Origin: Novibacillus thermophilus
GTDB lineage: Bacteria > Bacillota > Bacilli > Thermoactinomycetales > Novibacillaceae
Assembly (NCBI RefSeq): GCF_002005165.1
Contig: NZ_CP019699.1
Location: 1,984,001 to 2,048,000, forward strand
Length of the DNA stretch: 64,000 nt
Reading direction: 5' to 3'
Positions 3,513 to 18,770 of the stretch are shown piece after piece. A program made the translations under genes and the position numbers. Numbering within the stretch: position 1 is the stretch's first letter; each line of letters starts with the position of its first letter. Below the pieces are notes generated by a model. That model did not search any database. It saw only the letters and a list, made by a program, of their open reading frames with translations, and was not told the origin of the DNA.

Positions 3513-6500
3513 ATGTTGAGGCGATCTATGACATACCTACTGATGGTTTCAGTTGTTCTGTACACGGTGATGGTGCCGCTCACCATGATCGTAAATCCTC
3601 TAGCGGCATCAGCAGCCTCAGCGGATGATTTGCCTCAAGTGACGTCAGATGAGGACGAAAAAAGGGTCTTCATGTTCACACACACCGCCGGGTATCGCCA
3701 TGAATCGATTGATGCCGCCAAGGAGGTCATGCCCCAATTAGCGGAAGAATACGGGTTTCACGTTGACATTTCAGAAGATGTAAGCGATTTAAATTCTGAC
3801 AACTTGATGCAATACGACGTTTTAATGTTCGTCAATACGACAGGAAATTTCGGCAATGATGAACAGCGGCAGGCAGTGATCGACTTTGTCACATCTGGAA
3901 AAGGATTCGTGGGCGTTCACAGTGCGACGGATACCGGGTACGACTGGCCGGAGTACGGCGAAATGACAGGGGCGTACTTCAAGGAACACCCGTGGACCGA
4001 AGAGGTGACGTTCACGATAGAAGACGATGAATTTCCGGCGACCGCTCACCTGGCCCCCAGCTATACCCAATTGGAAGAGGTATACGTCTTTCAGGAAAAT
4101 CCAAGGCATAAAGGCAAACATATTTTGATGAGTCTCGATATGGAGAGTGTCGACGGAAGTAGATTTGAAGATCATCCGACTGCGTGGTGTAGCCCGCATG
4201 GGGAGGGGAGAATGTTTTACACCGCCTTGGGTCATTATTCCGAAACGTGGTATTTGGAAGCGTTTCAACAGCACCTCTTAGGAGGATTGCAATACGCTTG
4301 GGGTGGCGTGCCCGACCATAAGTGTGGCGAGCCTTCCAAGAAACCGGGCTTGATTAAAGAGAAGATTACCGACTCCATTCCCCGCCCAATGGCTCTGGAC
4401 ATTGCTAACGATGGAACACTCTTCGTCATCAGTATCGAAGGCTATCTTTACGAGGTATCACAAGACGGCGACACCCAGCAGCTCCTGTCTCTCGAAACAA
4501 CCACTGAAGGAGAACACGGCTTAATGGGTATCGCCTTAGACCCAGATTTTGAAGAAAATGGGCACATATATTTATATTACACCGAACCTGAGACTTTCGT
4601 CAACAAACTGTCGCGGTTTACGTATGAAGACGGCTCTGTCGACAGGTCGTCTGAAAAGGTCCTGTACACACTGCAGTCAGATGCGACTTGTTGTCACCAG
4701 GCAGGACACCTTTTGTTCGGACCGGATGGGAAACTGTATTTGACGTCAGGAGACAATCATCAGCCGACAAATGGACCGCAACCGTTGTCAATGGAAACGT
4801 CACAAAATCTGATGGATCCACGGGGCAGTATTCTTCGCTTCAATAAGGACGGAACCATCCCCGACGACAATCCGTTCGTGGGAAGGGACGACGCTCTGCC
4901 TGAAATTTACGCGTACGGTTTCCGCAACCCGTTCCGCATTTCTATCGACGAGAAGACTGGTGTCATTTACGAAGGTGACGTCGGTCCCGATCACCCGACA
5001 GACGATTACGACGAATTTAATGCGGTGACGGAACCGGGACAAAATTTTGGTTGGCCCCTCGGTATCGGGGATAAACCGTACAGCAATTATGCTGATCGGT
5101 TCCCGGATATGAGTGCTGAGGACATCGAAGAAGCGTTCGCTAAAACGAAAAAGCCGTCTGCTTTCTATCCTTACACACACAAAGAACCTTGGGGATCTGG
5201 CGGTCGATCTGCTTTTGCTGGTCCTGTCTACTATCATGAAGGGGAAGGTGGATTCCCAGATTTCATGGACGGCAAATTGTTGGCGTACGATTTTGTCCGC
5301 GGTTGGGTGAAGTTAGTCACAGTTGATGAAGAGGGCAACTTCCTGGAAGTGGAGGACTTTATCGAAGGTCTGGAACTGCCGATGGACATTAAAGTCGGTC
5401 CGGACGGTAATTTGTACGTGGCCCAGTTCGGGAACAGCTGGTGGGAAGAAAACGAGTACGCCGGAATTTTTAGATTCTCGTGGGACGTTTTGGAGCGAAG
5501 CCCGGTCATTCAAGCGAAAGCTAGTGTCACTTCCGGTTACGCCCCCTTGGAAGTATCATTCACGACTGAGGGAACGTACGATCCAGATGGCGACGACATC
5601 TCGTTCTCTTGGGATTTTGGTGACGGGAACACCAGTACAGAAGCCAATCCGACCCATACGTACACGGAAAACGGAGAATACAGAGTGACTCTCGTGGTCA
5701 CGGACTCCACTGGCAGGAGTGCTACTTGGAACAGGACGATCGTCGTCGGAAACACGCCTCCTGAGGTCGAAATTACATCTCCGCCAGACGCCACATTCTT
5801 TGATATGGGCGATACGTTTACATTTACGGGATATGCCACTGATGCAGAAGACGGTGAAATCGCTTGTGAAGATTTGGAGTGGCAGCTCGACCTGTTGCAC
5901 GACGACCACGGACACCCGCAAAATTACCAGCGGGGTTGTGAGGCCACTTTTACACTCTACGAGCCGGGACACGACCCTTACCGTGACAACATTTGGTGGC
6001 AAATGAAACTGGTGGTAAAAGACAGCGGGGGAGACGGAGCTCCGTCACTGACCGGGGAAGATGTCATTGTCTTCAATCAGAAACGGATGCAGGCTGAAAA
6101 CTACGATGACATGTTCGGCATTCAGACAGAAGAGACTTCCGATTACGGCGGAGGCCAGAACGTCGGGTATGTGGAAGCAGGAGACTGGCTCAAGTATGAG
6201 CACATCCGTTTGGAAGATGTTGAACAGATGTACTTCCGGGTGGCGAGCGAGTCGGCAGGTGTTCATTTCGATGTGCGTTTAGATTCACCTGACGGTGAAA
6301 CGATTGCCACAGTGACGCACCCTGCAACCGGCGGATGGCAGAATTGGACGACCGTCGGTACAGAACTAGAATATGTCCCGGAAGGGATACACGATCTTTA
6401 CATTGTGTTTAACTCAGATGGGCAAAACATGAACTGGTTTCAGTTCCAACTCCCAGGAGACGATCCACCTCCAGAAGGAGACTACCCGGAAGTCCCGTCC

Positions 6501-7892
6501 CCTGAGCCGTCGCCTGTAAGTTTGATCGGGGCGTTGGACAGAAGCTCTTGGGATGTGTCTGCCAGCCACTCCGACTCATCGGACGTACCCGAGAACGCGG
6601 TTGACGGTAATCTCGACACGCGCTGGACGACAGGGACGCCGATGAAAGAGGGGATGTGGTATCAAATCGACTTTGGCAGTCCGCGTCTCATCAACCGGGT
6701 GCACATAGACTTTGGATCGAATCAAAACGCAGAAGACCATCAAGACTGGTTCCGCGGCTACGACATTCAAGTGTCGACAGACGGGGAGAACTGGACGACT
6801 GTCGTCGCTCAAGAGTCGAACGAGGATGTGGTCGTCGATGAGACGTTCGACCCGGTTAAAGCCCGTTACGTGAAGATTGTCAACACGAAAGACGACCCAG
6901 ACAATCACTGGTGGGCTTCGATTCACGAAGCACACATCTTCACCCCACCGGTTAACGCGGAGAAGTGGACGTTTTCCTCAAACCGCGGCGATGAGAACGA
7001 CGAGGACAATCCCTCCGATGAACAGCACGTTGTAGACCGTGACCCTAACACTCGTTGGGACTCCGGCGGGCATCAGACGCCCGGACAGTGGTTCATGGTC
7101 GACATGGGTGAGGAAAAAACGATTGACACAGTGACGTTTGATTCACTGGCACACAAAGATAACTACCCCCGCGGCTATGAGATCCAGATCTCGACGGACG
7201 GGGAAGCATGGATGACGGTAGCTGAAAAAGAACAAAACGAGGACGTCGTCATTGAGGAAACATTTGATGAAGTGGTCGCTCGTTACGTGAAAATTGTCCA
7301 AACAGGATCGTCCGATGAGCATTGGTGGGCCATCGACGAACTGGACATTCAAGATACGGCAGCGCCGGTGACGGTCGCTTCCCTCGACGGTGAAAAAGGG
7401 GAAGAAGGCTGGTATACGTCAGATGTGACGCTGACCCTTGACGCGGGGGACGAAGATTCAGACGTCGCAAGAACTGAGTTCAGCTTTGATGGAGAGACGT
7501 GGGAAACGTACAGTGAACCCCTGCTGATTAGCGACGAAGGCGAGACGGATATATGGTTCCGCTCTACTGATGCAGCAGGAAATGTCGAAGCAAGTGATTC
7601 CATCCGCGTTGTGATCTTCAAGTTGCCCCCGACTGCGGAAAATATGAAGAAGGTTGTGGAACAGTTTGAGGAAGACGGAGCCTTCACTGACGAAGGAGCG
7701 TCTCGCAAGCTGAACGTTCACTTGACGTTAGTGGCCCGCTATGAAGACAGAGGCGATGCCGAAAAAGTCGTCAAACACATGCAAAACTTTAAGCTTTTAC
7801 TCGACTACCAACGAGAGAATGAGCTCATATCGGAAAAGGCGTCCCGCACATTAAACGCCTATGCCGATTACGTCGTCAATAAGTGGCTGTAG
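3513..7892 (+). CDS. Secreted multidomain ThuA / sugar dehydrogenase / carbohydrate-binding protein
   Basis: A 1,459-residue exported protein. Residues 1-36 form a signal peptide with an Ala-rich cleavage region (AASAASA). The order after that is: ThuA-type domain about 50-265; glucose/sorbosone-dehydrogenase-like beta-propeller about 285-660 (PRGSILRFNKDG, YGFRNPFRIS); PKD about 665-745 (SWDFGDG); an Ig-like spacer 750-855; CBM6-like 857-980 (QAENYD, EAGDWLKY); two F5/8 type C discoidin domains about 1000-1145 and 1148-1282; an Ig/OmpL47-like module about 1285-1370 (STDAAGN); and a C-terminal FIMAH-like helical domain about 1372-1459. It probably binds and oxidises or processes a polysaccharide or keto-sugar outside the cell. 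The downstream isomerase and transporter genes suggest shared use in uptake and breakdown of an oxidised sugar, but the substrate is unknown. Confidence 0.85.
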   Translation: MLRRSMTYLLMVSVVLYTVMVPLTMIVNPLAASAASADDLPQVTSDEDEKRVFMFTHTAGYRHESIDAAKEVMPQLAEEYGFHVDISEDVSDLNSDNLMQYDVLMFVNTTGNFGNDEQRQAVIDFVTSGKGFVGVHSATDTGYDWPEYGEMTGAYFKEHPWTEEVTFTIEDDEFPATAHLAPSYTQLEEVYVFQENPRHKGKHILMSLDMESVDGSRFEDHPTAWCSPHGEGRMFYTALGHYSETWYLEAFQQHLLGGLQYAWGGVPDHKCGEPSKKPGLIKEKITDSIPRPMALDIANDGTLFVISIEGYLYEVSQDGDTQQLLSLETTTEGEHGLMGIALDPDFEENGHIYLYYTEPETFVNKLSRFTYEDGSVDRSSEKVLYTLQSDATCCHQAGHLLFGPDGKLYLTSGDNHQPTNGPQPLSMETSQNLMDPRGSILRFNKDGTIPDDNPFVGRDDALPEIYAYGFRNPFRISIDEKTGVIYEGDVGPDHPTDDYDEFNAVTEPGQNFGWPLGIGDKPYSNYADRFPDMSAEDIEEAFAKTKKPSAFYPYTHKEPWGSGGRSAFAGPVYYHEGEGGFPDFMDGKLLAYDFVRGWVKLVTVDEEGNFLEVEDFIEGLELPMDIKVGPDGNLYVAQFGNSWWEENEYAGIFRFSWDVLERSPVIQAKASVTSGYAPLEVSFTTEGTYDPDGDDISFSWDFGDGNTSTEANPTHTYTENGEYRVTLVVTDSTGRSATWNRTIVVGNTPPEVEITSPPDATFFDMGDTFTFTGYATDAEDGEIACEDLEWQLDLLHDDHGHPQNYQRGCEATFTLYEPGHDPYRDNIWWQMKLVVKDSGGDGAPSLTGEDVIVFNQKRMQAENYDDMFGIQTEETSDYGGGQNVGYVEAGDWLKYEHIRLEDVEQMYFRVASESAGVHFDVRLDSPDGETIATVTHPATGGWQNWTTVGTELEYVPEGIHDLYIVFNSDGQNMNWFQFQLPGDDPPPEGDYPEVPSPEPSPVSLIGALDRSSWDVSASHSDSSDVPENAVDGNLDTRWTTGTPMKEGMWYQIDFGSPRLINRVHIDFGSNQNAEDHQDWFRGYDIQVSTDGENWTTVVAQESNEDVVVDETFDPVKARYVKIVNTKDDPDNHWWASIHEAHIFTPPVNAEKWTFSSNRGDENDEDNPSDEQHVVDRDPNTRWDSGGHQTPGQWFMVDMGEEKTIDTVTFDSLAHKDNYPRGYEIQISTDGEAWMTVAEKEQNEDVVIEETFDEVVARYVKIVQTGSSDEHWWAIDELDIQDTAAPVTVASLDGEKGEEGWYTSDVTLTLDAGDEDSDVARTEFSFDGETWETYSEPLLISDEGETDIWFRSTDAAGNVEASDSIRVVIFKLPPTAENMKKVVEQFEEDGAFTDEGASRKLNVHLTLVARYEDRGDAEKVVKHMQNFKLLLDYQRENELISEKASRTLNAYADYVVNKWL

Positions 7893-8078: not shown

Positions 8079-8951
8079 ATGAAACTCGCTTTTAGCACGA
8101 ATGCATTTACGAACATGACATTGCCTGAAGCGGTAGCGGCAGTAGGCCGGCTCGGCTACGAAGGGGTTGAAATATTGGCCGATGTCCCACACGCGTTTCC
8201 ACCGAGGGACGATGCGCCGTGGGTACTTGATGTGAAATGGCAGCTAGAGCGATACGACATAAAGGTGTCCAATATTAACGGCAACACGGCAGCCGGATTC
8301 TTTCGCGACCGGACAGGGGAACCGACATTTGAACCGTCCCTTTGCAATGCCGCGCAGGACGTGAGGCGTCAACGAATTAACTACACGAAAGGCTGTATCG
8401 ATCTGGCCAACGTTCTAGGAGCGTCGAACATCAGCATTACGAGCGGAATGTGTCTTCCCGGGAACCCGCCGCGGCAAGCATTGAAGTTTTTGCGCGAATC
8501 ATTAGAAGAACTGGTAGACTATGCAGAACAGCGCGAGGTGAATATCGGGATTGAGTATGAACCGGGGCTTTTGATCGAGAACGGCCAAGAACTGTTTGAA
8601 TTGATGCAAGTCGTAGCGTCTCCAAGACTCGGAGTCAATTTAGATGTGGGACATGTCCAGGTCATCGGCGAAGATTTAGACATTCTATTGAAAAAATTGG
8701 GCCCCCGCATTTGGAATGTGCATTTGGAAGACATTGACAGACAGAAACACTATCACCTCATTCCGGGGGAAGGCACGATGGATTTTCACAGTATTATAGG
8801 GAAATTGAGACATATCGGCTACGATCGCTATATCACGGTCGAGTTGTACACCTATGTAAACGAACCTGTGAATGCTGCAGAAAGATCAATCAGTTTTTTA
8901 CGACCGCTGGTTAAATCTACAGAAGGAGAGATTGTGAATGAAGTATTTTGA
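8079..8951 (+). CDS. Sugar phosphate isomerase/epimerase-like TIM barrel (first EboE-type copy)
   Basis: A 290-residue protein of the xylose-isomerase-like TIM-barrel (AP endonuclease 2) superfamily. Metal-ligand positions are visible as E in IEYEPG, D/H in NLDVGHV, H in WNVHLED and E in ITVELY. Its N-terminus (MKLAFSTNAF, then EILADVPHAFPP) closely matches the gene at 9749, so the two are paralogues flanking the TatD-like gene. AAGGGGGAG gives a good ribosome site before the ATG. Its 3' end overlaps the next gene by 14 bases. Such proteins isomerise or epimerise small sugars or inositols; in ebo clusters this family is EboE, of unknown substrate. Confidence 0.8.
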   Translation: MKLAFSTNAFTNMTLPEAVAAVGRLGYEGVEILADVPHAFPPRDDAPWVLDVKWQLERYDIKVSNINGNTAAGFFRDRTGEPTFEPSLCNAAQDVRRQRINYTKGCIDLANVLGASNISITSGMCLPGNPPRQALKFLRESLEELVDYAEQREVNIGIEYEPGLLIENGQELFELMQVVASPRLGVNLDVGHVQVIGEDLDILLKKLGPRIWNVHLEDIDRQKHYHLIPGEGTMDFHSIIGKLRHIGYDRYITVELYTYVNEPVNAAERSISFLRPLVKSTEGEIVNEVF

Positions 8952-9752
8952 CCCCCATATTCACGTCTATTCCAGGACAGTAGACGACTATGAAGCTATG
9001 AGCGCAGCAGGGCTGCGCGTCATAGTAGAGCCGGCATTTTGGCTAGGGAGCGAACGGCGTTATCCAGAAACCCATTTTGATTACTTTCACCACGTATTGA
9101 CGTTTGAGCCAGAACGGGCCAAAAAGTACGGCATCGATCATTACTGTTGTCTGGCCATGAATCCGAAAGAAGCCAACAATTTGGAAATCGCCCACCAAGT
9201 GATCGACGGATTGCCCGAGTATTTGAAACACGACCACTGCGTCGCCATCGGAGAAGTCGGATTTGACAAGATTACGGATGCAGAAGAGGAAGTCATGCGA
9301 AGACAGCTTCAGCTGGCAAAAAACCTGAGCATGCCAGTGATGATACACACCCCTCACGTGAATAAACGGGAGGGCACCATCCGGACCATCGAAATTTTAA
9401 AGGAGATGGATTTAGATCCGCAACAAGTTTTGCTCGACCATAACAACGACGACACGATTGACGTAGCGGTAGAGTACGGTGGTTGGATCGGCATGACGCT
9501 GTACCCAGGCAAAATATCTGTCGGAGGAGCATTAGAAATTTTAGAGAGGTATGGCACTGACCGCATGTTAATCAATTCGGCGGCGGACTGGGGCCCGGCA
9601 GATCCCTTAAGTGTAGCGAAAGCGCGCCGTGACATGAGGTTAAGGGGTATTCCGATGAGGAGATTCAAAAATTGGTGTGGGACAACCCAATTCAATTTTA
9701 CAAGCAGTCTGGCAAACTGAAGTTGGAAGACTTGGAGGCGGTTTCTTTATGA
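8938..9752 (+). CDS. TatD-family metal-dependent hydrolase (EboB-type), C-terminus frameshifted
   Basis: TIM-barrel metallohydrolase. The metal-binding start DPHIHVYSR, the GEVGFD segment, HTPH and DHNN are all in place. As written the frame stops at 9720 after an atypical tail. The +1 frame over 9655-9752 reads EEIQKLVWDNPIQFYKQSGK and ends LEDLEAVSL, a convincing native C-terminus. One base is therefore missing near 9654 (TTCCGATGAG, expected one more base). The restored protein has about 271 residues. Its stop codon would be TGA 9750-9752, overlapping the next ATG at 9749 in an ATGA junction, which also supports the corrected frame. In ebo clusters the equivalent gene is eboB. Substrate unknown. 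Confidence 0.8.
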
Positions 9753-10579
9753 AACTCGCCTTCAGCAGCAACGGGTTTAAGAAGTACGACCTCTTGGAGG
9801 CGATTGACCGCTTGGCGGATATCGGGTATGAGGGTATAGAAATACTGGCTGACATCCCCCACGCTTTTCCTCCGGACGTAACAGAAGAGAGAATTAACGC
9901 TATACGCGAGCGGCTGAAAAAACACGGTATGTCGATTTCTAACTTAAACGCGTTCATGTTGTACGGCATAAGGGACAACTGGCGGCCGTCTTTTATCGAG
10001 GCGGACGAGAAGGAGCGACGCCTGCGCATCGACCACACCCATCAGTGCATTGATTTGGCCGTCCAACTGGGAATTCAGACTCTCTCGACAGAACCAGGCG
10101 GTCCGATCGACGGCGTGGATGTGGACTGGGCCAACCACCTGTTTATATCGGCGATGGAGGAATTGGCGGACCACGCTGAAAAAGTGGGTGTGACAATTCT
10201 AGTCGAACCGGAACCGCATTTGCTCATCGAAAATTCCGATCAATTTATTGCTTTTAAAAAAGCCGTTCCATCCGAGGCAGTTGCACTGAATTTTGACGTT
10301 GGCCATTTTTTCTGTGTAGGTGAAGACCCGGTCGAGCTAGTGGAGAAGCTGCTTCCTTACACGAAACACTACCATTTAGAGGATATTGCTGCTGACAGAG
10401 TGCATCAACATTTAATTCCAGGAACGGGAGCTATTAATATTCCGCGTGTTTTGCAAACGATTCAACGGACAGGGTACGATGGTTTCATTACTGTTGAGTT
10501 GTACCCTTACGAGAACCGGGCGATGAAGGCTGCCAGCGAAGCGTATCAGTACGTCAAGAAGATCATGGATGCGCTATGA
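9749..10579 (+). CDS. Sugar phosphate isomerase/epimerase-like TIM barrel (second EboE-type copy)
   Basis: A 276-residue paralogue of the protein at 8079, sharing the opening MKLAFSxNxF and the segment GYEGxEILADxPHAFPP. Probable metal ligands lie in VEPEPH, NFDVGHF, YHLED and TVELYPY. The ATG at 9749 follows GGAGGCGG and overlaps the corrected stop of the TatD-like gene (ATGA); its own stop overlaps the next start at 10576 in the same way. These overlaps imply translational coupling in one operon. The family catalyses isomerisation or epimerisation of small polyols and sugars; the exact reaction cannot be read from sequence. Confidence 0.8.
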   Translation: MKLAFSSNGFKKYDLLEAIDRLADIGYEGIEILADIPHAFPPDVTEERINAIRERLKKHGMSISNLNAFMLYGIRDNWRPSFIEADEKERRLRIDHTHQCIDLAVQLGIQTLSTEPGGPIDGVDVDWANHLFISAMEELADHAEKVGVTILVEPEPHLLIENSDQFIAFKKAVPSEAVALNFDVGHFFCVGEDPVELVEKLLPYTKHYHLEDIAADRVHQHLIPGTGAINIPRVLQTIQRTGYDGFITVELYPYENRAMKAASEAYQYVKKIMDAL

Positions 10580-11460
10580 CCCGTATCCGTTCCTATCTGG
10601 AGTTGATCCGGTTTCCGAATCTGTTTTCGGCGATGGCAGATATTGTAGCCGGTGCGTGGGTGGCTGTGGGACTGTCGTCGAGTTCCCCATTTTCGTTAGA
10701 GCTTGCAGCCCTTCTTTTATCCAGTGCTGCTCTGTATGCGATGGGCATTGTGATGAACGATTATTTTGACTTTGAACTTGATTGTAAGGAGCGCCCAGAG
10801 CGACCTTTGCCTTCCGGAAGGATCAGCCGCTCCTCTGCCCTTTCGTTAGGAGCGGCACTCGGGCTAACGGGGGTGGGACTGGCTGCTTTAGTGAACGACG
10901 TCAGTCTGATCATTGCCGTGATGATTGTCGGGTGTGCGTTACTTTATGACCGTTATACGAAGCACTCGATCATAGCCGGTCCGCTCACAATGGGAATTTG
11001 CCGCGGTCTTAATCTGCTGTTAGGTGTCAGTCTAGTGGCGGAACAAGTCGCCCCATACTGGTGGTTGTCTGGCTTTGGCTTTTTGTACATTTTTTCAGTC
11101 ACGGCCATGTCACAGGGAGAAACAGGAGCAGGGACTCACCTTAGCCGCGTGCGATTGATGGCATTTACGCTCTGTGTATGTGCTTTGGGAAGCGCCTCCT
11201 TGTTTCATCTTTCCTCACACGCGGTGTCCAGTCTGTTAGCGGTCGTTCTATTTTTAGCTTGGACCTTTTCGGCAGTCGGACCTGCACTGCGTATGCCAAC
11301 TGCCGAATGGATTCGGAAAGCGGTCGAGCGGTGTGTTATCGGACTGCCTCTTTTGGATGCGGCGGTCGCCACGCCGTTTGGCGGGTGGGCTGCTTTCGGG
11401 TCGACTATGGTGTTGTTGTTGCTCGGCATTTTTTTCGCTCGCGTGTTTGCCGTGACATGA
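10576..11460 (+). CDS. UbiA-family prenyltransferase (EboC-type)
   Basis: A 294-residue integral membrane protein with about eight or nine hydrophobic segments. The UbiA prenyl-diphosphate-binding motif is present as NDYFDFELD followed by RPERPLPSG; the second Asp-rich motif is weaker, around YDRYTKH. It should transfer an isoprenoid chain to a small acceptor at the membrane. A UbiA member between an isomerase-like and an alkaline-phosphatase-like gene matches the ebo (EDB) arrangement, where it is EboC. The start ATG overlaps the previous stop by four bases. The acceptor is unknown. Confidence 0.8.
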   Translation: MTRIRSYLELIRFPNLFSAMADIVAGAWVAVGLSSSSPFSLELAALLLSSAALYAMGIVMNDYFDFELDCKERPERPLPSGRISRSSALSLGAALGLTGVGLAALVNDVSLIIAVMIVGCALLYDRYTKHSIIAGPLTMGICRGLNLLLGVSLVAEQVAPYWWLSGFGFLYIFSVTAMSQGETGAGTHLSRVRLMAFTLCVCALGSASLFHLSSHAVSSLLAVVLFLAWTFSAVGPALRMPTAEWIRKAVERCVIGLPLLDAAVATPFGGWAAFGSTMVLLLLGIFFARVFAVT

Positions 11461-11482
11461 GATCTGTAAAGGAGTTGAGAGC

Positions 11483-12829
11483 ATGAGTAAAAAACATGTT
11501 GTCGTATTGGACATCATCAGTTTAACTCCGGCAATGTTACACGATACTGAGCTCACCCCCAATATACAAAACATCTTGAAAGACGGAAGTCACGCAAAGG
11601 TAAAACCTGTGTTTCCTGCCGTCACCGGATCGATGCAGGCGACCTACATTACCGGAAAACCGCCGGGCGAGCACGGCATTGTGTGTAATGGGATACCGGA
11701 TCAAGCGTACAAGGACATCACAATGTGGAACCAGACGATGGTCCCGATTCAAGGGGAGAAACTGTGGGAAAAACTGAAAAAAGAGGATCCCGAGGCGACA
11801 ACGGCGATTTTGTTTTGGCAATTCAGCAAGCTGTCCACTGCTGATTACGTCGTGACCCCTGCCCCGATACATCTGGAAAATCACATGATTTTGTGGTGTG
11901 ATTCCAAACCCCGTGATCTGTACGGACGATTGCGAGAAAAGTATGGCGAATTTGACCTTGGTGCGTTTTGGGGTCCCCTTGCTTCCCTTAAGTCGAGCGA
12001 GTGGATTGCTCAGGCGGCCCTGGATGTACTGGATGAATACCGGCCGCGCTTATCCCTCGTCTACTTGCCGAACATGGATTACGATGCACAGCGGTTCGGG
12101 CCGGACAGCACGAGGGCACGACAGTCCGTAAAAGACATTGACACGTTAATCGGACGATTCGTACAGGAATTGGAACGGCGCGGGCTCAAGGACGATACGA
12201 GACTTGTCCTTTTGTCGGAGTACGCATTTAAAAATGTCCAAAGGCCCGTGTACATTAACCGGTTGCTGAATGAGAAAGGTTATATAGCCGTTAAGAGAGT
12301 AAAAGGGATGGATTTCTTGGATTTGGAGATGTGCCGGGCCTTTGCCATGGCTGATCATCAACTGGCGCACATCTATGTGAACGACACCGCTGACGTCGCA
12401 GCTGTTCAACAGCTGCTAAGGGACACACCTGGTATAGCAGAAGTTTGGGGGGAAGCGGAAAAACGGGCACACCAGATTGACCATGAACGGGCAGGAGATT
12501 TAATTGCCATTGCTGAACCGGACAGCTGGTTTGTGTATTACTGGTGGTGGGATGACAAATATGCGCCGGAGTTTGCTTACACCGTGGATATTCACCGCAA
12601 ACCGGGTTATGATCCCGTTGAACTTTTCGTTGATCCGAAAACGCGGAACATACCGCTCGAACCTGAGCGGATTGGGGGTTCCCACGGTCTACCGCCGCGC
12701 GGAGAAGAGGATATGGTGTCTCTAGTGGTATCGGGCAAAGATCTCGACCTTCCAGAAGAGCTCAAAGCCACGGAAGTCCACGATCTGTTGTTGGAACTGG
12801 CAAAACAACCGAAAGGAGCCTACAAGTGA
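11483..12829 (+). CDS. Alkaline phosphatase superfamily / nucleotide pyrophosphatase-like protein (EboF-type)
   Basis: A 448-residue member of the type I phosphodiesterase/nucleotide pyrophosphatase family. Visible features are the metal-binding start VVLDIIS, the Thr nucleophile region PAVTGSMQATYITGKPPGEHG, the YLPNMDYDAQRFGPDS segment and a C-terminal GGSHGLP metal-site motif. No signal peptide is seen, so it is probably cytoplasmic. It follows the prenyltransferase gene by 22 bases with a good AAGGAG site. In ebo clusters an equivalent gene (eboF) is found with eboB, eboC and eboE. It probably cleaves a phosphoester or pyrophosphate in the same pathway; the substrate is unknown. Confidence 0.8.
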   Translation: MSKKHVVVLDIISLTPAMLHDTELTPNIQNILKDGSHAKVKPVFPAVTGSMQATYITGKPPGEHGIVCNGIPDQAYKDITMWNQTMVPIQGEKLWEKLKKEDPEATTAILFWQFSKLSTADYVVTPAPIHLENHMILWCDSKPRDLYGRLREKYGEFDLGAFWGPLASLKSSEWIAQAALDVLDEYRPRLSLVYLPNMDYDAQRFGPDSTRARQSVKDIDTLIGRFVQELERRGLKDDTRLVLLSEYAFKNVQRPVYINRLLNEKGYIAVKRVKGMDFLDLEMCRAFAMADHQLAHIYVNDTADVAAVQQLLRDTPGIAEVWGEAEKRAHQIDHERAGDLIAIAEPDSWFVYYWWWDDKYAPEFAYTVDIHRKPGYDPVELFVDPKTRNIPLEPERIGGSHGLPPRGEEDMVSLVVSGKDLDLPEELKATEVHDLLLELAKQPKGAYK

Positions 12830-13012
12830 GTGGAATATGCCTGTCATTGCCTTTCCATCCCTAGCGTGTCAGAAAAATAAACGCTCATGATTTCATTAAA
12901 AGGGCATAAAATAAACAAAAAGTATATCAATGCATCATTGTGAATGTAGAAATAGAGTCTTTGTTTAAATACCAAATTAACAGAAATAAATGTGGTAGCG
13001 GGAGGAAGGAAT

Positions 13013-14488
13013 GTGCTTTTGGAGATGAAAGCGATCTCAAAGTCATTTCACGGGATCACGGTCTTACATAATGTCCATTTTCGTTTGCGCGAAGGGGAAG
13101 TACATGCGCTCGTTGGAGAGAACGGCGCGGGAAAGTCAACGTTGATGAAAATACTGGCAGGAATCTACGAGCCGGAAGAGGGAGAAGTGCTTCTTCGCGG
13201 TCAAAAAGTGTACATTGATTCACCGACTGTTTCACAACGGCTCGGTATTTCCGTCATTCACCAAGAGTTGAACTTAGTCCCCTATATGACTGTTGCAGAA
13301 AATATATTTTTAGGCAGAGAACCGAACAAAAAGGGGTGGCTGAGTTACGACCACATGGTCAAAGGGACAGTCCAATTACTAGGCCAACTTGGCTTAGATT
13401 TAAATCCTAAGGCTTATGTCCACAGCTTGAGCATCGGAGAACAGCAAATCGTTGAAATCGCCAAAGCGCTCTCAATTCACGCTGACATCCTTATTATGGA
13501 CGAACCGACGGCCGTCCTGACGGAATACGAGGCGTCCAAGTTGTTTCAACTTATAGAAAAATTAAAAAAACAAGGCGTCGGGATCGTCTACATTTCGCAC
13601 CGTTTGTCTGAAATCAAACGGGTTTGCGACCGCATGACCGTGTTGCGTGACGGTCAGCTTGTGACTACCTGTGACACTGATGAAGTAACGGAGCGTGACA
13701 TCGCCAATCTAATGGTTGGACGGGAGCTTCAGAATCTGTACCCGGAAAAACCGGATCGTATTGGGAATGAAGTTCTCCGTGTCGAAAAATTAAGCAAAGC
13801 GCCCTATTTTCACAATGTGAGCTTTCGTTTAAGGAGAGGAGAAATTGTCGGCTTTGCCGGGCTGATCGGAGCAGGGAGGACAGAGTTAGTCCGGGCGATT
13901 TTCGGGGATATTCGTCCAGACGCAGGCAAGGTGTATGTGCAAGGAGAGGAGGTTCACATCCGCAGTCCCGCCAACGCCATCCAACACGGCATTGGCTTTT
14001 CGACCGAGGACCGGAAAAAAACGGGTTTGTTCATGGACTTGAGTGTCGGGCAAAATGTGATCCTTCCGAGTTTAAACAACGTCAGCCGGATGTCTTTCGT
14101 CAATCGGAGAAGAGAACGCGCACTTGTGAAAAAGAAAGTGGAAGAACTCAAGATCAAACTAAACCACCTGAATCAACCGGTCAAAAACTTGAGCGGTGGA
14201 AATCAGCAAAAAGTCGTATTAGCCAAGTGGCTGTTGGCGGAAACCGAACTGTTTTTTTTGGACGAACCGACCAGGGGGATTGATGTCGGGGCGAAAGGAG
14301 AGATCTACCAATTGATTGCCCGCCTTGCAGCGGATGGGAAGGGAGTCGTCATCATTTCTTCTGAATTGCCCGAATTGCTGGGGTTGTGCAACCGCATTGT
14401 CGTGATGCACAAAGGTCAGGTACAAGGAGAACTGGACGCTCGAGAAGCGACGGAGCAGGCGATTATGGCCATGGCTACCGGTCTTTAG
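13013..14488 (+). CDS. rbsA: Ribose-type ABC transporter, fused ATP-binding protein
   Basis: About 491 residues with two tandem ABC domains, as in RbsA/MglA/XylG carbohydrate importers. Domain 1 has Walker A GENGAGKST, signature LSIGEQQ and Walker B LIMDEPT. Domain 2 has the degenerate Walker A GLIGAGRTE, signature LSGGNQQK and FLDEPTRG. It powers sugar import through the permease at 14503. GTG at 13013, seven bases after GGAGG (13001-13005), is the best start; an upstream GTG at 12992 lacks a ribosome site. The sugar could be ribose or another hexose or pentose. A near-consensus cre operator lies in the first codons. Confidence 0.85.
   Translation: MLLEMKAISKSFHGITVLHNVHFRLREGEVHALVGENGAGKSTLMKILAGIYEPEEGEVLLRGQKVYIDSPTVSQRLGISVIHQELNLVPYMTVAENIFLGREPNKKGWLSYDHMVKGTVQLLGQLGLDLNPKAYVHSLSIGEQQIVEIAKALSIHADILIMDEPTAVLTEYEASKLFQLIEKLKKQGVGIVYISHRLSEIKRVCDRMTVLRDGQLVTTCDTDEVTERDIANLMVGRELQNLYPEKPDRIGNEVLRVEKLSKAPYFHNVSFRLRRGEIVGFAGLIGAGRTELVRAIFGDIRPDAGKVYVQGEEVHIRSPANAIQHGIGFSTEDRKKTGLFMDLSVGQNVILPSLNNVSRMSFVNRRRERALVKKKVEELKIKLNHLNQPVKNLSGGNQQKVVLAKWLLAETELFFLDEPTRGIDVGAKGEIYQLIARLAADGKGVVIISSELPELLGLCNRIVVMHKGQVQGELDAREATEQAIMAMATGL
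13025..13039 (+). promoter_or_regulatory. Near-consensus CcpA (cre) operator inside rbsA
   Basis: ATGAAAGCGATCTCA differs at one position from the Bacillus cre consensus WTGNAARCGNWWWCA. It lies within the first codons of rbsA. Bound CcpA (encoded at 40351) would block elongation, giving catabolite repression of the importer and downstream genes. This is a match by eye and is not proof of binding. Confidence 0.5.
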
Positions 14489-14502
14489 AAAGGGGTGGAA
14501 CC

Positions 14503-15504
14503 ATGTCGAGCATACCAACAGAGACTGATACTCAAACAAAGGTACAGCCTGAGCCGTACAAGCCGCCGCGAAGTCGCGTTTGGTTTAAATATTTGTGGGA
14601 TCAGTATAGCGTCGTGTTTGCCTTTATCGTTCTTGTCGTGTTTGCCTCGATTTTAAGTGACAGCTTTCTATCTATTGCAAACGTGACGAATGTTCTACGC
14701 CAAATATCGATTATCGGAGTGTTGGCCGTCGGCATGACGTTTGTCATTCTGCTCGGCGGAATTGATTTGTCTGTCGGCTCAGTATTGGCTTTGACAGGTA
14801 CTGTCATCATGGCTTCGCAGGCGGATTACGGTATGCCCGTATTTACGGCGATCGGACTTGGTTTGTTAGCCGGCGCGCTCATCGGAATGGTCAACGGATT
14901 GATGATCACTTACGGCAAAATTGCAGCCTTTATTGTCACGCTGGCGATGATGACGATTTCACGCTCCTTGGCTCTATACTATGCCGATGCCGGGTCCATC
15001 TCTGGTACGAACATGCAGTACGCAGCAATCGGCAATGGGTATCTATGGCAAATTCCTGTTCCCGTTATTATTTTCGTGATCATTGTGCTCATTGCTTACA
15101 TGCTTTTAGAGAGAACGACTTTCGGACGACACGTATACGCCGTTGGCGGGAATGTACAAGCCGCAAGATTGTCTGCCGTCCCGGTGTACCGGGTGACGAT
15201 ACTGGCGTACATGATTTGTGGTTTAACAGCTGCTGTTGGTGCCGTTATAGAGACATCGCGGCTCAATTCCGTTTCCACGTCCAGTTCTGGAATGATGTAT
15301 GAGTTGGATGCCATTGCCGCAGTCATTATCGGGGGTGCCAGCTTAGCTGGTGGACGTGGGCGTGTGATCGGAACATTGTTCGGAGTTCTCATACTAGGTG
15401 TATTAAGCAATGTGATGAACTTGCTCAACATTTCACCTTACATACAGGGGGTGGTCAAGGGAGCGATCATTTTAGCTGCGGTGTTGCTGCAGAAGAGGGG
15501 TTAG
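14503..15504 (+). CDS. rbsC: Ribose-type ABC transporter permease
   Basis: A 333-residue multispanning protein of the BPD_transp_2 (RbsC/XylH) family, with about eight to ten hydrophobic segments and the characteristic VILLGGIDLSVGSV and GGASLAGGRG stretches. It forms the membrane channel of the sugar importer. ATG 14503 follows AAGGGGTGG; longer readings back to 14386 overlap rbsA and are unlikely. It lies 14 bases after rbsA and 33 before rbsB, in the same operon. Confidence 0.85.
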   Translation: MSSIPTETDTQTKVQPEPYKPPRSRVWFKYLWDQYSVVFAFIVLVVFASILSDSFLSIANVTNVLRQISIIGVLAVGMTFVILLGGIDLSVGSVLALTGTVIMASQADYGMPVFTAIGLGLLAGALIGMVNGLMITYGKIAAFIVTLAMMTISRSLALYYADAGSISGTNMQYAAIGNGYLWQIPVPVIIFVIIVLIAYMLLERTTFGRHVYAVGGNVQAARLSAVPVYRVTILAYMICGLTAAVGAVIETSRLNSVSTSSSGMMYELDAIAAVIIGGASLAGGRGRVIGTLFGVLILGVLSNVMNLLNISPYIQGVVKGAIILAAVLLQKRG

Positions 15505-15537: not shown

Positions 15538-16607
15538 ATGGTGAACCGGGGTTTTTGGGTAACGGTCGTCATGGCACTAGCACTAATTTTGGGGATGGCG
15601 GCTTGCAGTGTCGACGAGCCTCCAGGTGCGGAAAGCGGGGAGATGAACAGTGAAAACAGTGATGGAGAAAGTGAAGGGGATACAGACGGGTCATCCGCCG
15701 GTGACGGCCCCTTTACGATAGGGATTTCGCTACCTGCGGCTGATCACGGTTGGATGGGGGCGCTGATCGCGAACGCTGAAGAGGAAGCCAAAAAACATGA
15801 CAACGTTGAATACATTTTGCATACGGCTAACGATCCGAACAAACAGACGTCTGATATCGAAGATTTAATGACAAAAGGTGTCGATGCTATTGTCATGCTC
15901 CCGATTGAAACGGCTGCACTGACACCTGTAGCCGACACTGTCGCTGAACAGGGCATCCCGTTGGTTGTCGTGGATCGTGAGGTGAATACGGAAAGCTACC
16001 GCACATACGTGGGAGGAGATAATTACGGGATCGGGTTTGGAAATGGGAAATACTTAGTCGAAGGGCTGACAGAGAAAAACGGAGAACCGAGGGGAAGAGT
16101 CGTCGAAATTACAGGAGTTCCTTCCAGTGTGACTGATTTGCGGAGTCAAGGATTCCGCGATTATCTAGAAAACTATCCAGATATCGAAATTGTAGCCAGC
16201 CAACCAGGAGACTTTACCCGGGAAGCGGCCCTCAAAGCGACGGAAAACATTTTGCAGGCCAATCCAGAAATTGACGCTATTTACTCACAGGACGATGACA
16301 TGACCATCGGCATCGTGCAAGCGATTCGAGACGCGCAGAGGCAAGATGAGATGTTCATCGTCAGTTCAGGGGAATGAAGGAAATTTACCAGATGATGAAG
16401 GAGAACCAAAACCCTGAGATCGTCGTTTCGTTAAGATATCCACCAACGATGGGGGCTCTCGGTGTCAATCTAGCAGTTAAACTGCTTAACGGCGATAGCC
16501 TAGACGGTTTTTGGGGAGAGAGCATTCCCCATCGAGTGATGTTGGAGGCGACACCTGTGACGCCTGAAAATGTAGAAGACTATTACGATCCTGATGCAAT
16601 TTACTAG
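15538..16607 (+). pseudogene. rbsB: Ribose-type ABC transporter substrate-binding lipoprotein, frameshifted
   Basis: The N-terminus is a lipoprotein signal with lipobox LGMAAC, then an acidic Ser/Gly/Glu linker and a periplasmic-binding-protein type 1 domain (ISLPAADHGWMGALIANAEEEA, QDDDMTIG). The first frame stops at 16377. The protein continues in another frame to 16607 with MKEIYQMMK, VSLRYPP and the expected C-terminal lobe. One G is missing from the run at 16369-16372; five Gs would restore a continuous protein of about 356 residues. The substrate-binding subunit is essential, so if the frameshift is real the importer would be crippled. A sequencing slip is equally possible. Confidence 0.85.
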
Positions 16608-16653: not shown

Positions 16654-17616
16654 ATGAAGCTCGGAGTATTTGCTGTTCTGTTTGGGGAACTTTCACTGGA
16701 AGGTGCGCTAGACAAGGTAAAGGAAGCCGGTCTCGAAGCCGTGGAGATCGGGGCTGGCGGATACCCTGGCAACGCTCACTGCAACCCCCGACAATTGTTA
16801 AGTGATGAAGCGTCTATTTCCCGTTTAAAATCGGCTGTAGAGGAACGCGGATTAGAAATTAGTGCGTTAAGTTGTCACGGAAACCCGTTACATCCTGATG
16901 AAGAGATTGCAACTCTGCATCACCGGCAGTTTGAAGAAACGGTCAAGTTAGCGAGTGCCCTAGGTGTTGATACCGTTGTGACCTTTTCCGGCTGTCCAGG
17001 AGAATCGGAACACTCGAAGTACCCCGCATGGGTCACGTGTCCGTGGCCTCCTGATTTTCTGAAGGTGTTGGAATGGCAGTGGTCGGAAAAGGTGATCCCC
17101 TATTGGCAAAAGCAATCTGAGTTTTTGCGGGAACACGGGGTTCGCGTCGCCATCGAAGCCCACCCGGGATTTGTCGTGTACAACACTGAAACAGCACTTC
17201 GTTTAAGGAGGGAAGCCGGGGACAACATCGGGGTGAACTTTGATCCGTCCCACTTGTTCTGGCAAAATATGGATCCCGAAGAGTGTATTAAGGCACTTGG
17301 AGATTCTATCTACCACGTCCACGCGAAAGATACGTCGATAGATAAAAGAAACACCGCGTTAAACGGTGTTCTTGATGTCAAGCCGTACGCGCAGGAGCTG
17401 GAGCGCTCGTGGATTTTCCGTACCATCGGGTATGGGCACGGCGTGGAAGTGTGGAAAAATATTGTAAGTGCACTGAAGAAGGTTGGATACGACGGTGTCA
17501 TCAGTATCGAACATGAAGATAGCCTCATGTCGGTCAATGAAGGATTTACCAAGGCGGTGGAATTGTTAAAGGATGCCTTAATCTATGAGAAAGCAGGTGA
17601 GATGTGGTGGGCGTAA
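16654..17616 (+). CDS. Sugar phosphate isomerase/epimerase-like TIM barrel
   Basis: A 320-residue xylose-isomerase-like protein, longer than and distinct from the two at 8079 and 9749. Probable metal ligands are E in AIEAHPG, D in NFDPSHL, H in YHVHAKD and E in SIEHED. It follows rbsB by 46 bases with AAAGGAGAG and overlaps the oxidoreductase gene by 13 bases. The pairing of such a protein with a Gfo/Idh enzyme is common in inositol, rare-sugar and 3-keto-glycoside catabolism, so it probably acts on the sugar imported by the adjacent transporter. Confidence 0.8.
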   Translation: MKLGVFAVLFGELSLEGALDKVKEAGLEAVEIGAGGYPGNAHCNPRQLLSDEASISRLKSAVEERGLEISALSCHGNPLHPDEEIATLHHRQFEETVKLASALGVDTVVTFSGCPGESEHSKYPAWVTCPWPPDFLKVLEWQWSEKVIPYWQKQSEFLREHGVRVAIEAHPGFVVYNTETALRLRREAGDNIGVNFDPSHLFWQNMDPEECIKALGDSIYHVHAKDTSIDKRNTALNGVLDVKPYAQELERSWIFRTIGYGHGVEVWKNIVSALKKVGYDGVISIEHEDSLMSVNEGFTKAVELLKDALIYEKAGEMWWA

Positions 17617-18770
17617 CCCGGTCTGTCCGTGTCGGGATGGTCGGCTACAAGTTTATGGGAAAGGCACACAGCCACGCTTACAAGGATGTCGGCCTGTTCT
17701 TTGACTTGGGAGCACAGGTGCGCATGCAGGCCATCTGTGGACGGAATGAAGCGGCCGTCAGAGAGGCGGCCGAGCAGTACGGCTGGGCGAGCTATGAAAC
17801 GGACTACCGGCGTTTGGTCGAACGCGACGACCTTGACTTGATTGACGTCAATGCTCCCAGCAATGTGCACAAAGATATCGTGATCGCCGCTGCGCGCGCT
17901 GGGAAGCATGTCCTGTGTGAAAAGCCGTTAGCCCTTTCGCTGGCGGACGCGAGGGAGATGTTGGCGACGGCTGAAGCAGCGGGTGTCAAACACGGAATAT
18001 GCTTTAACTACCGTTTTCTACCGGCGGTACAGTTGGCAAAGCAACTGATTGACGAAGGGAAGATCGGGGAAATCTATCACTACCGCGCTCTCTACTTGCA
18101 GGATTGGCTCGTTGATCCTAAAGCGCCTTTGGCCTGGCGCCTGCAAAGAGAAATAGCGGGTTCAGGCGCACACGGTGATCTGAATGCGCACTGCATCGAT
18201 CTAGCTCGCTTTCTTATCGGGGATTTTGACTGTGTCGTGGGACAGAGCAAGACGTTTGTCAAACAGCGACCGAAACCTGTAGAGATGAGTGGATTAACTG
18301 CGAAAGGTTCCGGTGAAATGGGGGATGTGACGGTAGACGATACGACCTCGTTCCTCGCCCAGTTTAAAAACGGGGCTCTGGGAACGTTCGAAGCCACCAG
18401 GTATGCGACGGGATGGAAGAACGGGAACTTGTTTGAAATTAACGGGAGTAAAGGTTCGATCCGCTTTAACTTGGAGCGTCTCAATGAGTTGCAAGTGTAT
18501 TTCGCTGATGAAGAACCCCGTACGCAAGGATTCAAAACGATTATGGTGACAGAAGATGTTCATCCGTATGCAGGTCACTGGTGGCCGCCAGGACACATTA
18601 TTGGCTACGAACACGGGTTTGTCCATGTGGTGTACGAGTTGATTCAAAGTATTGTGGAAGACAAACCGTTTGTTCCCGACTTTTCGGACGGGGTCGAGTG
18701 CCAGCGTGTTTTGGAAGCGGTGGACCAATCCATTGAAACCGGTTCATGGGTGGCGATTGAAGACCTATAA
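17604..18770 (+). CDS. Gfo/Idh/MocA-family NAD(P)-dependent oxidoreductase
   Basis: A 388-residue oxidoreductase with an N-terminal Rossmann fold (VGMVGYKFMGKAHSHAY, where the usual GxG is changed) and the family signature CEKPLALS with the catalytic Lys. The C-terminal dimerisation domain contains GSGAHGDLNAHCIDLARF, with the conserved Asp/His pair. It probably oxidises or reduces a hydroxyl of a sugar or polyol. The GTG start overlaps the isomerase gene, implying coupled translation. It closes the carbohydrate operon and converges on the gene at 18780. Confidence 0.85.
   Translation: MVGVTRSVRVGMVGYKFMGKAHSHAYKDVGLFFDLGAQVRMQAICGRNEAAVREAAEQYGWASYETDYRRLVERDDLDLIDVNAPSNVHKDIVIAAARAGKHVLCEKPLALSLADAREMLATAEAAGVKHGICFNYRFLPAVQLAKQLIDEGKIGEIYHYRALYLQDWLVDPKAPLAWRLQREIAGSGAHGDLNAHCIDLARFLIGDFDCVVGQSKTFVKQRPKPVEMSGLTAKGSGEMGDVTVDDTTSFLAQFKNGALGTFEATRYATGWKNGNLFEINGSKGSIRFNLERLNELQVYFADEEPRTQGFKTIMVTEDVHPYAGHWWPPGHIIGYEHGFVHVVYELIQSIVEDKPFVPDFSDGVECQRVLEAVDQSIETGSWVAIEDL

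Follow-up and report, generated by a model that had tools for sequence, protein, structure and literature searches.

A variant ebo-type operon with two isomerase-family paralogues beside a sugar importer in Novibacillus thermophilus

The ebo cluster is spread across many bacterial phyla and algal plastids. Its EboE protein is a xylose-isomerase-like TIM barrel, and the idea that the cluster makes a prenylated cyclitol was formerly based on EboD and EboC alone (PMC5133447). In flavobacteria, characterised enzymes of the EboC type attach farnesyl groups to aromatic acids (8-hydroxyquinoline-2-carboxylate; PMC9235831), and an export role for ebo has been reported in connection with scytonemin (PMC6282210), a role that would fit a prenylated carrier. 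Here we describe an ebo-type operon in a 64,000-nt stretch of the Novibacillus thermophilus genome (contig NZ_CP019699.1, positions 1,984,001 to 2,048,000; hereafter the window). The operon is real, and its type is without description in the literature searched, where we found neither a link between ebo and inositol nor a UbiA prenyltransferase joined with inositol or cyclitol. We tentatively regard it as a reduced ino-type (inositol-type) ebo operon whose enzymes would attach a prenyl tail to a head group derived from a cyclitol, which in this lineage would have to come from another source.

A sequence-only reading had placed an ebo-related operon of this Firmicute beside a sugar importer. 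Five adjacent, co-directional genes were confirmed at positions 8079-12829, all on the + strand, and a CUT2-type importer follows from 12992 onward. The operon comprises:

8079..8951, + strand: TIM1, an AP_endonuc_2-family, metal-dependent isomerase/epimerase/dehydratase-like protein, not EboE (PF01261, 136 bits)
8938..9720 as deposited, likely true end 9752, + strand: EboB-type TatD-like metallo-hydrolase (44% to canonical EboB)
9749..10579, + strand: TIM2, a paralogue of TIM1, not EboE (PF01261, 151 bits)
10576..11460, + strand: EboC, a UbiA-superfamily prenyltransferase (NF035940, 304 bits; cut-off 250)
11483..12829, + strand: EboF, type I phosphodiesterase / alkaline-phosphatase-like (PF01663, 212 bits)

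Three of the five families named in that reading (EboB, EboC and EboF) stood, and those given for the two isomerases did not. On the curated EboC model the UbiA protein clears the cut-off, and in a tree it groups with EboC at 100/100 support against other UbiA proteins from the same order, not on an unrelated UbiA branch; it carries the NDxxDxxxD and YDxxxK motifs. The TatD-like protein is 44% identical to Aureibacter EboB over 248 aa and reaches only 47 bits on the TatD model (cut-off 206). Its closest solved chain is the uncharacterised AF_1765 (132 bits, vs. 26 bits for TatD DNases), and its sequence appears to set it apart from TatD DNases as a metallo-hydrolase of the EboB type. Over 456 aa the phosphodiesterase shares 36% identity with canonical EboF, and it contains the EboF-wide SEY motif. 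On gene content, the operon appears to fall within the broad definition of an ebo operon, that is, the EboB-EboC-EboF core.

The isomerases had been taken for EboE-like proteins, one of them an extra copy. On the EboE model TIM1 and TIM2 score 22.5 and 28.5 bits, respectively, far under the cut-off of 250, and in the tree EboE forms one fully supported clade, with TIM1 and TIM2 outside it in two groups of their own (90/92 and 92/92), both of which include proteins from Bacilli and haloarchaea; two EboE copies were rejected on these grounds. TIM1 and TIM2 are 38% identical and have a metal-site pattern in common (EPE, DxGH, H-EDI, EL), whose residues would be the metal ligands, as in the D-tagatose 3-epimerase family. 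They are two paralogues whose orthologues occur in haloarchaea and in further Bacilli. Their predicted models (mean predicted local distance difference test score 84) resemble epimerases and IolI: the nearest folds to TIM1 are D-tagatose 3-epimerase, Art22 and IolI, and the nearest to TIM2 is IolI (1i60), with a resemblance also to the 3-dehydroshikimate dehydratase AsbF. The fold searches score members of the entire isomerase/epimerase superfamily about equally and do not fix the reaction.

EboC matches above the cut-off are present in 4 of 399 Bacilli genomes, in 1 of 348 genomes of the Gracilibacillus order, and in 6 of 350 of the Paenibacillus order, where one further match lies under the cut-off. 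Weak UbiA matches occur in 40 of the 42 genomes of the window organism's own order, and only the window genome passes the EboC cut-off. A profile for TIM1/TIM2 (E<=1e-45) recovered from the 399 Bacilli exactly the four EboC genomes, with two copies each, all within the cluster. A hand calculation, which ignores relatedness, puts the chance of this agreement at about 1 in 10^9 if the two were independent.

Comparison of the fetched clusters, for which the haloarchaeal and actinobacterial samples consisted of a few plasmid records only, revealed that the EboB-EboC-EboF core is constant and that the ring-forming part varies. EboD, usually with EboA and EboE, is found in 67 of 77 contig loci other than those of the three Bacilli, and in Aureibacter; the remaining ten loci were truncated contigs or had no EboD nearby. 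Ino1 was found in none of the 68 fetched EboD loci, and EboD in no Ino1 cluster. Ino1 together with TIM1 and TIM2 characterises three Bacilli clusters (genomes G174, G381 and G219) and those of the haloarchaea Halocatena, Natronococcus and Halobaculum, and the Ino1 of G174 aligns over its full length with archaeal Ino1 structures. The actinobacteria Nonomuraea and Embleya combine Ino1, a TIM protein, EboA and EboE; in Nonomuraea the TIM and EboA lie in one open frame, a joining already noted for actinobacteria by Yurchenko et al. (PMC5133447). In two Paenibacillales (G949 and G931), TIM1 and TIM2 are accompanied by an IolE-like dehydratase (275 bits, cut-off 290) and a cyclase like 2-deoxy-scyllo-inosose (DOI) synthase. 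The G931 cyclase scores 304 bits to DOI synthase 2d2x vs. 136 to 3-dehydroquinate (DHQ) synthase, and its G949 orthologue occupies the same place:

L131, 6000-8002, and L132, 6255-8335: DOI-synthase-like cyclase with IolE-like dehydratase, inside an ebo-type cluster

Four Paenibacillus-type clusters (L041, L043, L130 and L133) are TIM-less and show EboC-EboF-EboB followed by an HpaB-like phenol hydroxylase (677-681 bits in the two tested). TIM1 and TIM2 without a known cyclitol synthase were found in the window, Gracilibacillus, G779 and Haladaptatus, for the last within the 19 kb fetched. Some 5 kb from the G779 cluster lies a glycerol-1-phosphate-dehydrogenase-like gene (L129:1881-3050; 216 bits, cut-off 413). 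ScyD/ScyE-like genes adjoin Bacilli ebo-type clusters at L036:4360-6099 and L037:14995-16701 (60 bits, cut-off 80) and at L043:8155-9915 (a ScyE-like protein), and recall the scytonemin gene neighbourhood.

The locus had been seen as a minimal version of the canonical cluster. Instead, it has a distinct two-isomerase architecture common to haloarchaea, in which the synthase is normally Ino1 and not EboD, and relative to its nearest kin the missing gene is Ino1. No match to Ino1 (PF07994) was found in the whole genome of the window organism. The predicted absence of EboD was borne out, as the sole DHQ-synthase-family (PF01761) gene, taken to be AroB, lies at 2.84 Mb, outside the cluster; the idea of an Ino1, or of a further sugar phosphate cyclase, encoded at another site was rejected by whole-genome profile search. 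EboA, also predicted to be absent, gave no genome match with a six-row profile that had no positive control, and the window's first 20 kb also held none. Gracilibacillus likewise has no Ino1 and a single DHQ-synthase-family gene. Both genomes are most simply explained as having come to be without any known ring-forming gene by loss: in a tree of EboC, the window, G779 and Gracilibacillus, all three without Ino1, branch among Ino1-bearing Bacilli, which makes loss of Ino1 the simpler reading, although the tree cannot prove direction.

As for the layout, the overlaps of 4 to 14 bases described in the sequence-only reading hold for two of the four junctions as read, TIM1/TatD-like (14 bases) and TIM2/UbiA (4 bases); in the deposited sequence the TatD-like/TIM2 and UbiA/phosphodiesterase junctions are gaps of 28 and 22 bases. 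Frame analysis indicates that the EboB C-terminus is frameshifted at the GGGG run 9644-9647. In the neighbouring frame, the C-terminus (YSDEEIQKLVWDNPIQFYKQSG...) resembles those of relatives, stops at 9752 and overlaps the TIM2 start by 4 bases; an alternative GTG start at 9677 would extend TIM2. The substrate-binding protein of the importer also shows a one-base frame loss in a G-run, as tblastn of the Gracilibacillus protein gave two frames joining at 16371. With two such one-base losses at G-runs in a span of 7 kb, sequencing error seems a likelier cause than decay. A promoter and terminator scan of the operon gave counts not above those of shuffled sequence. The G+C content of the block (50.3%) is close to that of the rest of the window (51.0%), giving no sign of recent foreign origin.

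The operon is flanked by a conserved upstream gene and by a downstream importer block:

3513..7892, + strand: secreted 1459-aa protein with ThuA, glucose/sorbosone dehydrogenase, PKD, CBM6, F5/8 type C and FIMAH domains (Pfam)
12992..14488, + strand: double ATPase of the CUT2-type sugar ATP-binding cassette (ABC) importer (RbsA/XylG/GguA-family models; 60% to the Gracilibacillus gene in the same place)
14500..15504, + strand: CUT2-type permease (RbsC-family models; 73% to Gracilibacillus)
15538..16377, + strand, frame broken near 16370 with the remainder in the +1 frame to ~16604: substrate-binding protein, RbsB-like
16654..17616, + strand: TIM3, AP_endonuc_2 family, distant from TIM1/TIM2 in a separate clade (70% Gracilibacillus, 45% Haladaptatus)
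17604..18770, + strand: Gfo/Idh/MocA oxidoreductase, levoglucosan-dehydrogenase-like (57% Gracilibacillus, 46% Haladaptatus)

Gracilibacillus lacisalsi shares the whole block (ThuA protein, TIM1, EboB, TIM2, EboC, EboF, CUT2 importer, TIM3 and Gfo/Idh). The ThuA protein has orthologues in the same place in Gracilibacillus (56%) and beside the clusters of G931 (48%) and Embleya (35%). In the window, IS4-family and IS110-family transposase genes lie directly upstream of the ThuA gene (97-2959). Between EboF and the importer, Gracilibacillus encodes a 204-aa protein of unknown family (L042:12357-12971), with no counterpart in the window. In Haladaptatus, orthologues of TIM3 and Gfo/Idh (45-46%) lie a few kb or less from the cluster. 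As the importer neighbourhood is kept in Gracilibacillus and partly in Haladaptatus, it is not incidental. The Gfo/Idh protein scores 398 bits on the levoglucosan dehydrogenase model NF052479, under its cut-off of 650, and 127 bits on IolG; because of this difference, what the importer takes up may not be inositol but a glycoside or anhydrosugar.

From the gene families, their architecture and co-occurrence, the lack of known cyclitol synthases, and the alternation of EboD and Ino1, we infer a possible order of steps, with its catalysis, substrate, product and importer role. A six-carbon cyclitol or ketone of the inositol/inosose type would be reshaped by the TIM1/TIM2 pair and the EboB hydrolase, EboC, at the membrane, would add an isoprenoid tail, and EboF would take off or transfer a phosphate group on a phosphate-bearing intermediate, giving a small prenylated cyclitol-derived membrane compound, possibly aromatised. 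The nearest relatives would form the ring in-house from glucose-6-phosphate via Ino1, and two of them via the DOI-synthase-like cyclase and IolE-like dehydratase. The window genome and Gracilibacillus would have to obtain the ring precursor by another way; a plausible route is the neighbouring CUT2 importer, acting with the Gfo/Idh dehydrogenase and TIM3. Because two lineages of different orders, both without Ino1, keep the importer and the TIM operon together, import may have replaced cyclitol synthesis in them.

A cyclitol stage is supported by the replacement of EboD by two cyclitol-forming enzymes of known chemistry; Ino1, which is unrelated to EboD, and the DOI-synthase-like cyclase provide independent support for it. 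The replacement pattern also names candidate substrates (glucose-6-phosphate, inositol phosphate and inosose), and the small ino-type operons of Bacilli and haloarchaea would be convenient for reconstitution. A broader proposal, which we hold a little more loosely than that for the window operon itself, is that the constant B-C-F core prenylates and processes a ring, while the ring module is swapped (EboD, Ino1, DOI-synthase-like with IolE, HpaB) and gives way to import salvage in the window lineage, so that the head group would be cyclitol-derived, ultimately from glucose-6-phosphate or uptake.

Several observations weigh against the reduced ino-type operon. The importer-side oxidoreductase is nearer to levoglucosan dehydrogenase than to IolG, EboB and the binding protein are frameshifted in the deposited sequence, and G779 has neither Ino1 nor DOI synthase and does not share the importer block. 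In addition, the characterised EboC-type acceptors are aromatic acids, not cyclitols (PMC9235831), and a phenol hydroxylase replaces the cyclitol genes in the four Paenibacillus-type clusters, hinting at an aromatic acceptor. The HpaB variant, with the hydroxylase directly after EboC-EboF-EboB, and the reported ability of EboC homologues to farnesylate quinoline acids (PMC9235831) lend support to an aromatic final acceptor, as does the AsbF-like predicted fold of TIM2. In such a pathway the ring would be dehydrated to a polyphenol (AsbF/IolE-type) and EboC would make a prenylated phenol or quinone-like compound, with cyclitol synthases and HpaB as alternative routes. Yet HpaB is missing from the window cluster and from every TIM-bearing cluster examined, and the aromatising role of TIM1/TIM2 is only putative; we consider this version rather unlikely, and note that a cyclitol stage is compatible with an aromatic acceptor provided that the ring is aromatised by the TIM enzymes.

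The operon could instead be a decaying remnant, non-working and drifting after loss of Ino1. The genome without a known cyclitol synthase, the two frameshifts, and its standing as the only one in its order with EboC above the cut-off would all agree with this. However, Gracilibacillus, from another order, keeps the Ino1-less block with catalytic and transport proteins 52-73% identical, TIM1, TIM2, EboC and EboF are complete and retain conserved motifs, and both frameshifts are one-base G-run losses typical of sequencing error, which leaves decay improbable. The levoglucosan-dehydrogenase-like Gfo/Idh next door raises the question of whether the TIM enzymes are part of a module for the catabolism of 3-keto-glycosides (levoglucosan-like) merely abutting the ebo genes; in Bacillus smithii, levoglucosan is converted by two isomerase-family enzymes encoded beside an ABC importer (PMC7676230). 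But in clusters without importer and Gfo/Idh (L035, L036, L131 and L132) the ebo genes still enclose TIM1 and TIM2, and neither occurs without EboC among the 399 Bacilli, making such a module very unlikely. A reduced canonical cluster with two EboE copies would account for EboB, EboC and EboF, and EboE shares the TIM-barrel fold (PMC5133447); given the EboE scores and separate clade, and the actinobacterial clusters that hold a TIM1-like protein and EboE together, this is the least probable of all and hardly credible.

Compared with the described systems, the window shares with ebo ABCDEF of Bacteroidota, Cyanobacteriota and eustigmatophyte plastids (PMC5133447) the EboB, EboC and EboF orthologues in one operon, but it is without EboD and EboE, EboA is undetected, the gene order is different, and two paralogous TIM-barrel enzymes are present. 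The eboABCEF genes beside the scytonemin genes (PMC6282210) resemble it in having EboB, EboC and EboF and no EboD, whereas the window has neither EboE, nor a detected EboA, nor scytonemin genes. The levoglucosan cluster lgdA/B1/B2/C of Bacillus smithii (PMC7676230) has similar enzyme families beside an ABC importer, like the downstream module of the window, but no prenyltransferase, EboB or EboF; its relation to TIM3 and Gfo/Idh is judged by NCBIfam score alone. The actinobacterial cluster of Ino1, EboC, TIM-EboA, EboB, EboE and EboF (L033, L034) is like the window in its EboB, EboC and EboF and in having no EboD, yet it retains EboA and EboE and its TIM protein is distant (28-32%). The Ino1 two-isomerase clusters (L029, L032, L145 and L035-L037) have orthologous EboB, TIM1, TIM2, EboC and EboF, as in the window, which differs from them in being without Ino1 and in having the importer block.

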